From assembly GCF_036203305.1 (NCBI RefSeq), contig NZ_CP108131.1, forward strand, positions 6,820,001 through 6,884,000: 64,000 nucleotides of DNA, read 5' to 3'. Below, one piece after another: positions 46,400 to 57,260 of this stretch. Every line of letters begins with the position of its first letter. Position 1 is the first letter of the stretch. A program made the translations under genes and the position numbers. The notes below the pieces were generated by a model, which was given only the letters and a program-made list of their open reading frames with translations, was not told where the DNA came from and searched no databases. Source of the DNA: Streptomyces sp. NBC_00190 (lineage in GTDB: Bacteria > Actinomycetota > Actinomycetes > Streptomycetales > Streptomycetaceae).

Positions 46400-46473
46400 C
46401 GGGACGTGGCGCAGCTTGGTAGCGCACTTGACTGGGGGTCAAGGGGTCGCAGGTTCAAATCCTGTCGTCCCGA
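46400..46473 (+). tRNA. tRNA-Pro (anticodon GGG), integration target of the island
   Basis: Base-for-base identical to the tRNA at 26330-26403, with the same cloverleaf and GGG anticodon. Its last 35 bases form the left repeat of the integrated element, which ends one base past the tRNA. The intact tRNA therefore remains on the attL side, as usual for integrases that rebuild the target gene. Confidence 0.97.
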
Positions 46474-46474
46474 C
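46439..46474 (+). repeat. attL: 36-bp direct repeat in tRNA-Pro
   Basis: The segment from TCAAGGGGTCGCAGG to CGTCCCGAC is repeated exactly at 57225-57260. It covers the 3' anticodon stem, variable loop, T arm and acceptor 3' strand of the tRNA. Confidence 0.9.
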
Positions 46475-46500
46475 TAGAGTTCTACTCATAGTCGCAGGTC

Positions 46501-46534
46501 AGAGCCCTGCTTCACTTCGGTGAGGCAGGGCTCT
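46501..46534 (+). terminator. tRNA terminator, copy 2
   Basis: AGAGCCCTGCTTCAC-TTCG-GTGAGGCAGGGCTCT, 15-bp stem with one mismatch or wobble and a TTCG loop. Same design and position as at 26433-26464. Confidence 0.85.
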
Positions 46535-46591
46535 TGATCGTTTTCCGCGGCGATGTGTCACATTTGGTCACAAGACGGGATGGATCTTGCC

Positions 46592-46871
46592 CTAGCTGGC
46601 GAGCAGCTCCCCGAGCTTGTCCGAACCGGCCTTAAGATTCTGCGGGTCGGGGTGAACGTAGACCCGCTTGGTGAAGGACAGGTCCGAGTGTCCGGCCCAC
46701 GCGGAGACGACGGTGTCGGGCACGCCGTTGTTGGCCATCCAGGAGAGCACGGCGTGACGGGCGTCGTAGAGACGGACCTTCCGAACGCCGGCTTGGGCCA
46801 TGAGCCGGTGAGCCTCGCGCCGCAGCTTGTCCGTCTTAAAGGGTCGGCCCAGCTCGTCAACGACGACGTAA
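46592..46871 (-). pseudogene. Tyrosine recombinase (integrase) 3' remnant
   Basis: About 92 codons remain, ending GSDKLGELLAS. They contain VRLYDARHAVLSWMANNGV (catalytic His/Arg region), AGHSDLSFTKR and the nucleophile Tyr in RVYVHPDPQN. The reading frame is cut off at 46872 by the inverted repeat of an IS5-family element; the N-terminal two-thirds, including the first catalytic Arg, is not on the other side. Without it the product cannot recombine. The short distance to attL (about 120 nt) is typical of AICE int genes. Confidence 0.9.
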
Positions 46872-54460: not shown

Positions 54461-55574
54461 GCGATGGAGGTAGTAGTCCTCCACCTCGTCCAGGGCGTGA
54501 GGCAGCTCGGTGAGAGCGGGGAGGCGAGGGGTTCTGACCTTCTGGACGCGGTCGTCCGGGAGTCTGACGAATGCCTCGCCGACGCGTAGCTGCTGGATGG
54601 ATTGGACCTGCCGCTCCCACTGTTCGGCCAAGGGGTAGTAGGCCGGGTGGGTGCGGTCCTCGGCGGCCTCGTCGGTGACGACGTGCTTGATGGCGTCCGG
54701 GTCGACGGTGCCGAAGAGTCGGGCGGAGTGTTCAGCGTCCGGGCGGCCCGCCTTGAGCACGACCTCCAGGCCGACGTTCTGAAGGGCTCCCTTGAGCCGG
54801 TCGGATGCCTGGCTCCAGTTCTGATGTGCCATGACGCAGAACAGGTTGTACTTGCGGGTCTCCGAGAGCATGCGGGTGAGGCTCTCCTCGCTCTGGGCCA
54901 TGAACTGGGAGAACTCGTCCAGTATCAGAAAGTGAGGTGCCCGGCCGGATCCTGCGGCCCGGATGTTGGCCCGGCTTAAGGCCGCGGTCTCCATGCCCAC
55001 CGTGAGCAGACAGCCAAAAAGCCGACGGGCATCGGGGGAGGCAACGGCAAGGTTGACGATCAAGGATGTACCCGAGTCGATCAGCCGCCGGAAGGCCAGG
55101 ACGTTTCGCTCATTGCCCAGGGCGTAGCGAAGGATGGGGGAGAGGGTCAGAAGGTCGGCCCGGTTGAGCGTTGACTCCTTCATCCGCGGTGCGTCCCGTC
55201 CCCACTGGTCCATGCGGAGTTTGAAGAAGCGGATCACCTGCGGATCGTGGACGTGGGTTAGCAACTCGTCGCGCAGGGACTTATCCGTCAACAGGTCCGA
55301 GAGCCGGGTGAGGGGAAGCCCTGCCTCGCGTAGCGCCACGACTGAGTGCTTGAGGATGTTCTCAAAGGTGGGTGCGCCGTGGGCCAGCTCGGGCCATGCC
55401 CTCCGGGCTGCTTCGGCCGCGTGTTCGGCCATCGCGTGATCGTCGTACGGCTGGGCGAGAAAGTTAAACGGAAGGTACCGACCCTCAACGGCGGCGGCCG
55501 GTACGTCCAGATACATCAGCCGGGATCGCTGCTGGGGAGTATCGAGCTGCCCGGCCTGGACGAGATGGGCCAGG

Positions 55575-55670
55575 ACCCTCTATCTGCCGCTGAACGAGGC
55601 CCGCGTCCACATGCATGTGCTCGGCAACAGCCCGTCACCCTCATTGACCCGCACGGCGACCTCGCCGTTG
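55575..55670 (+). pseudogene. Inverted N-terminal fragment of the TraG-like gene, Walker A deleted
   Basis: On the plus strand, opposite to the rest of the gene, 55575-55625 reads TLYLPLNEARVHMHVLG, and in another frame 55628-55666 reads QPVTLIDPHGDLA. In coupling proteins these two strings flank Walker A (HVLGxTGxGKST ... xVxxIDPHGDL). The ~30 codons between them are gone. Together with the minus-strand remainder this shows an inversion plus a deletion at about 55575-55626. Confidence 0.65.
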
Positions 55671-55921
55671 GAGGTCGCGGGGGAAGATTCGGAGGTATGT
55701 CGAGAGCTGGAGAACTCTGCTAATGCCAGTGCTTCCGCTCTTCAGGGGAAGAGACGAAGACGCGCTTCTGGCATCGGATAGTCCGACTGAAAACCCGCTC
55801 CTTGTCCTTCCTTGGAAGTCATGAGGGATAGGCCCCGGTGCGTCGGCCTCGACGAGGGACGCAGTACGGCCGGGGCCGCACTGCCCCGAGTGGCTCTCGT
55901 GAGGCGATCCGGGGCCTACGC
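55671..55921. other. Non-coding junction sequence
   Basis: Between the inverted TraG fragment and the nuclease gene stop. It contains a nested palindrome: TGCCAG (55724-55729) with CTGGCA (55768-55773), and CTCTTC with GAAGAG inside. No gene seen. Confidence 0.4.
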
Positions 55922-56863
55922 TCACTCGGAACCGGAGAAGATCTTGGACACCGGCAAGTAACAGTGTCCCGTCTGACTGGCATGACCCTTCTTGCGGTCC
56001 AGGAGGTCGTCCAGCCTGATGCGCTGGTCGAGGACGGCCATGAAGTCGCTGCCGTCCATCGTGATGAAGGGCGTGCTGTAGCTGTAGACGGCCAGGGCAT
56101 CGGTGCTGTATCCGCTCATGCTGACGTAGAGCCCAAGCGTGTTCTTGCCCTTACGCTCGATGTTGGCCTTGAACACGTCGAGCTCTCTACGGCCGATGGC
56201 CTCCTTCCACCACTTGGCTTCGAGCACGTAGTGGTCCGTGTTGAAGGAGAAGGCGCCATCGATCTGTTCATGATCGAGGCTGTAGGACGCCCGCGGCTCC
56301 AGGTCGTACAACGCAAACAGCTCGTTGATGAAGCCCTCGAAGGCGGTTCCCCGCTTGTGTGGGTCGCCGGCTGAGTGCATCAAGAGGAATCGCTGCTTCA
56401 GCTCCTCGTGAGACTGGGCGAACGCCCGTCCGTCCTGAGCCTTCTTGGCGCTCTCAGTGATGGCAGCGGCATGCGCTTCGTGCTCTTGGATGACCTCTTG
56501 TTGTTTGGCCGTCCAGCGACGCAACTCCGTCACAGCCGCAGCGGCCTTGGCCACCATGTCGTCGCCGTCGACCTGGTTCATCAGGTTCGGGAAGGTATCC
56601 ATGGCGGTGATGTCGAGCATCAGCGCGATGGTCAGATCGAGGTAGCGAGCTTCGTTGGCTCGCAGGAGGTTGACCACCTGGCCGGACACTTCACGTTTGG
56701 TGGCCCCGAAGTCCAGTCGTGCCAACAGCTCGCTGTGGTCTTGCAGCATCCCTCGGAGGTACAGCTCAAACGGCTTCTTGTTCCAGAAGATCAGCGTCAG
56801 GGCCTCGACGAGAGCCAGGTACGCGCTGGGGTTAACCGTCTTCTTGCGAGCATCGTTGTGCAT
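55922..56863 (-). CDS. Mrr-like restriction endonuclease-fold protein
   Basis: 313 aa from ATG 56863, with GGAGGGGGACGG upstream. The N-terminal ~190 residues are helical and charged (LVEALTLIFWNKKPFELYLRGML; WTAKQQEVIQEHEAHAAAI). The C-terminal nuclease core starts GTAFEGFINELFALYDLE (about 193-210) and has the PD-(D/E)xK ligands: Asp in DHEQIDGAFSF (about 221-231) and EAK in HYVLEAKWWKE. The rest (GRRELDVFKANIERKGKNTLGLYVSMSGYSTDA, in pieces) continues the Mrr_cat-like fold. The gene is intact in a decaying island. Likely role: cutting modified or foreign DNA; not shown. Confidence 0.78.
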   Translation of the reverse strand: MHNDARKKTVNPSAYLALVEALTLIFWNKKPFELYLRGMLQDHSELLARLDFGATKREVSGQVVNLLRANEARYLDLTIALMLDITAMDTFPNLMNQVDGDDMVAKAAAAVTELRRWTAKQQEVIQEHEAHAAAITESAKKAQDGRAFAQSHEELKQRFLLMHSAGDPHKRGTAFEGFINELFALYDLEPRASYSLDHEQIDGAFSFNTDHYVLEAKWWKEAIGRRELDVFKANIERKGKNTLGLYVSMSGYSTDALAVYSYSTPFITMDGSDFMAVLDQRIRLDDLLDRKKGHASQTGHCYLPVSKIFSGSE

Positions 56864-57224
56864 CCGTCCCCCTCCTGCGGGCCACCACTCAAGGTCACCA
56901 GGCAGTAACGGTAGCGCGGCGCAGGCTGATGATCTGCCCCTACGAGCAGATTCGATGCGTCGGTCCACGACGCCCCCTGGAGGGCCCTATAGATCAACGA
57001 GGAAGACGCAACGCGCCGGACGATCAAGGAGCCGATCCGCGATCACGCGGACTTCCTGGAGGCTCAGGCGCCCTCGTGGGGCACACCTGAACCGAGCCCT
57101 GGCGTGTCACCGATTTGTCACGCACTCCGGCTCGTGCCCCCGGGAGACAGTGCGCTGACCTGGACGTTTGCCGGACTGTGTGGACTGTACGGACGAGAAA
57201 GACTGCGCGTCAGCCACTGGGAGA
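56864..57224. other. Stretch between nuclease gene and attR
   Basis: 361 nt. A plus-strand open segment from 57002 reads INEEDATRRTIKEPIRDHAD then FLEAQAPSWG without a start codon, possibly a remnant of a larger gene. Otherwise nothing recognised. Confidence 0.4.
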
Positions 57225-57260
57225 TCAAGGGGTCGCAGGTTCAAATCCTGTCGTCCCGAC
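57225..57260 (+). repeat. attR: 36-bp copy of tRNA-Pro 3' end
   Basis: Exact repeat of 46439-46474. Immediately to its left CACTGGGAGA partly resembles the tRNA anticodon loop but the 5' two-thirds of a tRNA are missing. It marks the right end of the integrated element. Confidence 0.92.

Follow-up and report, generated by a model that had tools for sequence, protein, structure and literature searches.

A probable cis-mobilizable element with exact 36-bp ends in a tRNA-Pro gene of Streptomyces sp. NBC_00190

In a 64,000-nucleotide stretch of the genome of Streptomyces sp. NBC_00190 (RefSeq assembly GCF_036203305.1, contig NZ_CP108131.1, positions 6,820,001 to 6,884,000; hereafter the window) we have found an island, at positions 46475-57260, inserted at the 3' end of a tRNA-Pro(GGG) gene and closed at both sides by the same 36-bp sequence. 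This island is probably (at roughly four chances in five) a cis-mobilizable element (CIME), i.e., the remnant of an integrative mobilizable element (IME). CIMEs have been defined as elements that lost their integration and transfer genes and kept their attachment (att) sites (PMC5704250). Here both att cores and both ends are kept, the integration genes and the transfer genes are lost, and the relatives, on which the ancestor has to be judged, carry an integrase of their own as an IME does. The limits of the island, its insertion into the site, its gene losses and its relatives all come from sequence comparison.

Results

Target gene, attachment cores and limits of the island

The features that define the island are the following:

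46400..46474, + strand: tRNA-Pro(GGG), intact target gene (tRNA_2; ARAGORN; Rfam 63.8 bits)
46439..46474, + strand: attL core, 36 bp, the 3' end of the tRNA (exact repeat)
46475..46591, no strand: left end of the element; a terminator-like inverted repeat, recognised in the sequence, follows the tRNA
56990..57224, no strand: right end of the element (79% to S. cirratus; part of it aligns in three other elements)
57225..57260, + strand: attR core, 36 bp (exact repeat)
26330..26404, + strand: twin tRNA-Pro(GGG) (tRNA_1; ARAGORN), with a third core copy

The 36-mer at 46439-46474 is an exact copy of that at 57225-57260, in a match that extends to 41 bp at 95% identity, and such an exact repeat is far beyond chance. 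The earlier sequence-only reading had described these two repeats, the left one inside an intact tRNA-Pro, and on this point ARAGORN, Rfam and the repeat itself agree. Its account omitted a third exact copy, at 26369-26404, inside a second tRNA-Pro(GGG) gene that has 0 mismatches out of 75 when compared with the target gene. These three are the only occurrences in the 64-kb window when up to 12 mismatches are allowed on both strands. A 121-bp query containing the core gave nine matches in the 8.9-Mb genome, three of them at high identity (93-100%: both tRNA-Pro(GGG) genes and 57216-57260) and the other six at 75-77%. The G+C content of the island is 62.1%, versus 72.4% at its left and 73.0% at its right. 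Taken together with the relatives described below, these sequence data indicate that 46475-57260 is a real site-specific insertion in tRNA-Pro, with exact ends.

The pair formed by the third core and attL could delimit another island (26369-46474). This candidate was rejected, as the stretch 26405-46399 has an ordinary G+C content (72.4%) and is largely, although not wholly, matched in a relative genome (G083). Since G083 has both tRNA-Pro genes and the stretch between the twins is largely syntenic with that of the window, the twin tRNA appears to be an old paralogue.

Empty and filled sites in relatives

The 160 bp to the right of attR were compared with 150 Streptomyces genomes, 56 of which matched. 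Among 30 loci taken from this search, 20 had the full tRNA directly before the flank, six (the window included) had the core only, and for four the script gave no call; the loci had been selected for their right flank, so that 20/30 is no genus-wide rate. One locus (L031) that was scored as full tRNA in another comparison was missed by the stricter 30-locus script. In five of 18 fetched stretches (L039, L042, L043, L046 and L047) the left flank was also present, at 73-89% identity, and all five lack the element and have the intact tRNA joined straight to the flank that starts at 57261 in the window. This is the empty site, 46474 joined to 57261, that the sequence-only reading had predicted for an alignment of relatives. 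The count of five leaves out S. cirratus, in which an element lies between both flanks, and another genome (G082) that has the left flank and the tRNA followed by a different tail. In the closest relative (G042) the left side is 87-89% identical and the right one 91% over the first 81 bp. The comparison indicates that there are at least three states at the tRNA_2 site. BLAST rows of up to 60-100 columns were dropped in the flank and locus comparisons, and rows of fewer than 35 columns in the alignment of the window with its relatives.

These sites bear on the possibility that the repeat is a mere scar of tRNA duplication or recombination, with no insertion at all. A twin tRNA-Pro with the same core does lie 20 kb away, but it is an old paralogue to judge from G083, tRNA_2 has both empty and filled versions, and the island has an integrase and conserved ends. 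The scar explanation is refuted by the empty and filled sites and its probability is close to nil.

Related elements and their shared backbone

A search with the ATPase of the island led to nine related loci. In S. cirratus JCM 4738 (NZ_BMVP01000005.1) the same element is found at the same locus, 17.07 kb from att to att, with a left flank 82% identical to that of the window and with the same ends, integrase type and right neighbour. It differs from the window in having a full-length integrase, ParAB and DUF5677, and no Mrr match. The element parts that both share are 79-88% identical, near the value of the flank, which fits one old insertion inherited by the two strains but does not prove it. 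Other att-bounded elements at tRNA-Pro(GGG) were found in S. tailanensis (20.2 kb), S. nymphaeiformis (23.6 kb) and S. cinerochromogenes (24.9 kb), and a further one in Streptomyces sp. ISL-43, where the contig, up to its end, revealed no far att.

The shared order is int, an Xis-like helix-turn-helix gene, parB, parA, an XRE/DUF6879 cassette, small open reading frames (ORFs), a VirD4/HerA-like ATPase, Replic_Relax, a second ATPase and an SSB-like gene. The full order was seen in S. cirratus, S. tailanensis and ISL-43; elsewhere some genes fell outside the searched stretch or were unmatched. The Pfam matches in these elements were to Phage_integrase (an integrase of 400 aa in ISL-43 and S. cirratus), HTH_17, ParA, DUF87/TrwB_AAD_bind, Replic_Relax and SSB. 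The S. cirratus ATPase and the piece left in the window are each 94% identical to that of ISL-43 at the amino acid level, and the S. cirratus Replic_Relax, with some 49 fewer residues aligned than that of ISL-43, may be impaired too. ATPase and Replic_Relax are also together in Pseudonocardia eucalypti and in an actinobacterial metagenome-assembled genome. Matches to the ATPase at 1e-50 or better were found in two of 392 Streptomyces genomes, one of them the window's own, which indicates that the close family is rare. Two ORFs, of 503 and 236 aa, in the right arm of the S. tailanensis element (L125:7416-9666) have no Pfam or NCBIfam match, and ORFs of similar size occupy the corresponding position in S. 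nymphaeiformis; the two are candidates for the missing transfer functions.

Loss of integration and transfer genes

Most of the backbone is broken in the window, where the following remnants and neighbouring features were identified:

46592..46876, - strand: integrase remnant, last 94 of 400 residues
46872..47772, - strand: IS5-family insertion, with 21-bp perfect terminal inverted repeats
47773..47820, - strand: parA remnant, some 16 codons from the start of the gene (ParA is intact in ISL-43 and S. cirratus)
49709..50589, + strand: conserved block of three small ORFs, shared with ISL-43 and S. cirratus (84% to S. cirratus over 891 columns)
51567..52421, - strand: 284-aa ORF with a signal-peptide-like start and no Pfam match
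53147..53290, - strand: C-terminal relic of the VirD4-like ATPase, at the far side of the IS630 insertion
53289..54456, + strand: IS630-family insertion, clean, splitting the ATPase gene
54455..55577, - strand: VirD4/TraG-like ATPase, middle part (94% aa identity to ISL-43)
55570..55666, + strand: ATPase N-terminal piece, inverted
55822..55919, no strand: relic of the right arm of the element (in S. cirratus nearly contiguous with 56990, at 19375 and 19392)

The integrase tail pointing to the left end, already recognised from the letters of the window, is a remnant of 94 residues, 94% identical to residues 307-400 of the 400-aa integrase, and its 3' end faces attL. The longest ORF at this place is in a different frame from the remnant. 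At the nucleotide level 46475-46871 is 88% identical to S. cirratus and 88-89% to ISL-43. The insertion sequence (IS) of the IS5 family joins the last 94 integrase codons to approximately the first 16 of parA. Since about 3.4 kb found in the relatives are missing at this point and no target duplication is apparent, an IS-linked deletion is suggested to have taken most of int and parA. Elsewhere in the genome this IS5 copy is matched by one near-full relative, at 84%, and by fragments, of which three lie at 68-122 kb of the main contig. Compared with the related elements, the island gave no match to xis. The next best integrase of the genome is 32% identical to the element type, and no second close one was found.

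The ATPase gene is in pieces. The flanks of the IS630 insertion abut in ISL-43 and S. cirratus, with 4 bp shared, and the inverted N-terminal piece is without the 60 bp in which most of the Walker A motif of S. cirratus lies. From this piece to near the right end some 8 kb are gone, and with them Replic_Relax, the second ATPase and SSB. No match to Replic_Relax was found in the island when compared with the related elements, and PF13814 had none above cut-off in the window's own genome. The loss of integrase and transfer function claimed in the sequence-only reading is supported. The right end, 56990-57224, aligns along its length to S. cirratus.

Assignment of the element

Loss of function leaves the kind of ancestor to be decided, and the sequence-only reading had taken it for an actinomycete integrative and conjugative element (AICE), a decayed relative of pSAM2 deprived of Int, Rep and TraB. 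The AICEs pSAM2, pACPL and pSAM3 have the same tRNA target (the att segments of pACPL, 43 nt long, lie in a proline tRNA gene; PMC3364876), int beside att and a similar size. A tyrosine integrase and direct repeats, also found here, are shared by AICEs and IMEs and do not discriminate. AICEs are recognised by Int, Rep and an FtsK-like TraB (PMC9513070, PMC3218068), and no Rep or FtsK-type TraB like those of the three was found among the proteins of the island family that were scanned. Among the ORFs scanned in the window no FtsK-type TraB was detected. In the four att-bounded relatives PF01580 gave one weak match each (1.1e-4 to 6.3e-4), always on the VirD4-like ATPase and below cut-off in three (S. 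tailanensis, with 24.2 bits, is just over 24), versus FtsK matches near 1e-64 elsewhere in the same genomes. The ATPase itself points to the VirD4/TraG/HerA side: that of the window has a TraG-D_C match just over cut-off, and that of ISL-43 has TrwB and DUF87 over cut-off and FtsK_SpoIIIE at 23.3 versus a cut-off of 24. Pfam scans, not exhaustive, of 10, 6 and 10 proteins of related elements gave no AICE Rep (RepSA, RepAM or Prim-Pol). We rejected the AICE origin on the TraB test in the four relatives and the Pfam scans, and consider it highly improbable.

If the ATPase is a coupling protein, the island could descend from an integrative and conjugative element (ICE) of the type IV secretion system (T4SS) kind that lost VirB4 and the channel genes. 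Replic_Relax is relaxase-like, the second ATPase is weakly TraD-like, one source annotates the ATPase as 'type IV secretory system conjugative DNA transfer family protein', and the ATPase of the window matches VirB4 very weakly (E 0.037). However, no better VirB4 match was found among the proteins scanned, four att-bounded elements of 17-25 kb have the same short backbone, and the ICEs and IMEs of one Streptomyces survey measure 86-99.7 kb (PMC9513070). A T4SS-type ICE is therefore an unlikely ancestor. An integrated plasmid or a phage satellite, unrelated to conjugation-type elements, is very unlikely as well: ParAB, SSB and Replic_Relax (plasmid replication-relaxation by its name) are plasmid-like, but the integrase/att organisation and the coupling-type ATPase speak against it, and at E 1e-20 the ATPase matched one of 72,556 plasmid records, with 29.5% identity.

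The assignment as a CIME left by an IME is consistent with the putative relaxase of the relatives. PF13814 was found at 3.1e-21 in a related element; this domain has been tabulated as a MobC relaxase, accompanied by VirD4 in two streptococcal IMEs (Coluzzi et al., PMC5357655), and a 2025 review places the MOBC relaxases among PD-(D/E)xK enzymes (PMC12857230). The model of Replic_Relax comprises a winged helix plus a second domain, and P199, D200, E218, D220 and K232 are the same in 26 of 26 sequences.

Several observations weigh against this assignment. No more than 3414 of the 10750 bases of the island align to S. cirratus, indicating that much of the interior is replaced or unrecognisable, which an S. 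cirratus-like ancestor does not explain. For Replic_Relax as a relaxase the basis is a literature table together with the invariant P-D...E-x-D...K columns (26/26); its best Foldseek match was a type IIS restriction enzyme at E 4.7e-3, with none at 0.001 or below, and a second structure comparison (VIA) matched mainly the winged-helix part. The ATPases resemble HerA-type defence ATPases (PADLOC mad8 at 1.8e-7 for the window piece and 1.2e-13 for the second ATPase of ISL-43) and, weakly, archaeal CedD. In the VirD4/HerA-like ATPase the P-loop is near residue 41, and the membrane domain found at the N-terminus of most coupling proteins (PMC7431656) would hardly fit before it. For T4SS channel genes, none of which an IME should have, the negative result holds for the ORFs scanned in the relatives, not for all of them.

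Cargo of the island

Between its ends the island carries a nuclease and a regulator cassette:

48076..48303, + strand: small ORF of the regulator cassette
48280..48789, + strand: DUF6879 protein of the regulator cassette (Pfam; homologues in related elements)
48723..49646, + strand: XRE/DUF5753 regulator, intact ORF (Pfam)
55922..56866, - strand: Mrr_cat nuclease of 314 aa, frame open, D203 and E216/K218 present (PF04471, 4.1e-7)

An intact nuclease and an XRE cassette had been proposed before and were both recovered, the nuclease as an open frame of 314 residues with the Mrr_cat domain and the XRE/DUF5753 ORF beside DUF6879. The Mrr gene lies between 55919 and 56990, and since these two flanks nearly touch in S. 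cirratus it is added cargo. It has 468 homologues, the best one 96% identical and from S. goshikiensis. One homologue of the ATPase is likewise from S. goshikiensis, on a contig equal in length to that of the nuclease, and to judge by this length alone the two genes may travel together. In the alignment of the nuclease D203 and E216 are present in 31 of 31 sequences, and position 218 is occupied by K in 20, as in the window, and by R in the other 11, indicating that lysine 218 is not strictly kept among Mrr homologues. The structural model (predicted local distance difference test 86, predicted template-modelling score 0.61) combines a helical N-terminal part with a C-terminal part resembling a nuclease, with weak Foldseek matches to MspJI and EndoMS and none at 0.001 or better. 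The nuclease did not match the PADLOC defence models, so that its role is putative, and sequence searches of the PDB gave no match for either nuclease or ATPase.

Restriction-type cargo was found in the window, S. cinerochromogenes and S. nymphaeiformis, and none was noted in S. cirratus, S. tailanensis and ISL-43, in a search that was not exhaustive. The S. cinerochromogenes element contains an Mrr homologue (44% at the amino acid level) together with an XhoI-type nuclease and an N6-methylase; this nuclease and the methylase, of Eco57I/N6 type, adjoin the ATPase (L121:10835-13421). At the matching place S. nymphaeiformis has an XhoI-type nuclease of the same family, with a methylase identified by ORF similarity only.

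The XRE/DUF6879 cassette (48076-49646) is reversed in comparison with S. cirratus and ISL-43 and has the same direction as in S. nymphaeiformis and S. cinerochromogenes. The XRE protein is only 38-42% identical to those of the four strains, and the cassette seems to have been swapped between sister elements.

A tandem array at the right and a scar at the twin tRNA

The right neighbour of the island and the twin tRNA gene carry two further remnants:

57261..57510, - strand: left end of a second tRNA-Pro element (R family), with scraps of its integrase
26405..26634, - strand: scar of the first element family, 230 bp, with the left end and about 37 integrase residues

In two relative genomes (G070, locus L049, and G046, locus L043) the tail that begins at 57261 is followed by integrases of another type, of 487 and 525 aa, and the window has frame-broken scraps of this second type at 57377-57504. 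In S. cirratus the second element ends at another att copy (with 2 mismatches), 6.57 kb further on. These similarities identify the flank at 57261 as a left end, now decayed, that belongs to a second tRNA-Pro element rather than to ordinary chromosome, and they make the island part of a tandem array. The empty-site junction of the sequence-only reading stands, although it did not recognise that its right-hand flank was itself an element. For the distal att of the second element no further high-identity copy was found in the window genome.

Beyond 57504 no match of more than 80 columns at 1e-10 was found with S. cirratus (46.7 kb versus 51 kb). In 25 loci the right side matched only in the first 140 bp, the integrase scrap and two isolated places (L048 and L054), and neither comparison revealed where, on its right, the array borders on the chromosome proper. 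As synteny with S. cirratus stops at 57504, the stretch 57505-64000 may hold the start of a rearrangement or of another island. At the other end, the scar next to the twin gene indicates that both tRNA-Pro(GGG) genes carry remnants of the first family, i.e., that this is a repeated landing site. Tandem accretion is known at tRNA-Arg in Streptomyces (PMC9513070).

Discussion

For the transfer route and any remaining mobility we infer the following from the relatives. In the intact form, excision between the 36-bp cores would be the work of a tyrosine integrase and an Xis-like protein, and a MobC-type relaxase (Replic_Relax) would nick the element. The VirD4/HerA-like ATPase might then hand the strand to the type IV channel of a helper, or to an unknown channel, while ParAB and the SSB-like protein would help the excised form to persist. 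As integrase, parA, ATPase and relaxase are broken or gone, the island of the window should not move alone. Since both att cores and both ends are kept, its mobilisation by a related integrase is conceivable in principle, and would take along the Mrr nuclease and the XRE/DUF6879 cassette as cargo.

Among described systems, the class 8 IMEs of streptococci (PMC5357655) also have a PF13814 relaxase and a VirD4-type ATPase with no T4SS, but they use serine integrases, unlike the elements described here, with their tyrosine integrase, tRNA-Pro target, ParAB, second ATPase, SSB-like protein and actinobacterial host. XSAM1 of S. ambofaciens, a 42-kb CIME beside pSAM2 (PMC4891641), is likewise a Streptomyces CIME adjoining another element; it is larger and its neighbour is an AICE, in a comparison that covers size and setting. 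The accretion at tRNA-Arg (PMC9513070) also consists of tandem elements, old remnants and direct repeats at one tRNA, although of AICE families and not of IME-like elements at tRNA-Pro(GGG). IMEs are known in Streptomyces from plant-pathogenic species (PMC10711302) and from one population survey (PMC9513070), and a 2017 review counted one canonical IME in Actinobacteria (PMC5704250). In the literature searched, which misses most subscription journals, we found no description of small Streptomyces IMEs with a MobC-type relaxase candidate and a coupling-type ATPase of their own.

A wider idea, which we regard as rather doubtful, is that the island is the fossil of an undescribed compact (17-25 kb) actinobacterial family specific for tRNA-Pro(GGG), having a relaxase of winged-helix plus PD-(D/E)xK architecture, two mutually related VirD4/HerA-like ATPases, an SSB-like protein and swapped restriction cargo (Mrr or XhoI-type pairs). 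As no channel genes were seen, such elements might dispense with a classical T4SS and pass DNA from mycelium to mycelium in single-stranded form, which would make them a single-strand equivalent of TraB. Double-stranded transfer by TraB is the known route in mycelia.

CIMEs are already known in Streptomyces as a kind, from XSAM1, and the wider interest here lies in the family of better-preserved relatives. A nuclease and a regulator cassette of the chromosome are now given a likely origin and exact limits, and the sister elements separate the parts of the backbone from swappable cargo. Being better preserved, these sisters allow asking how such elements travel in mycelia.

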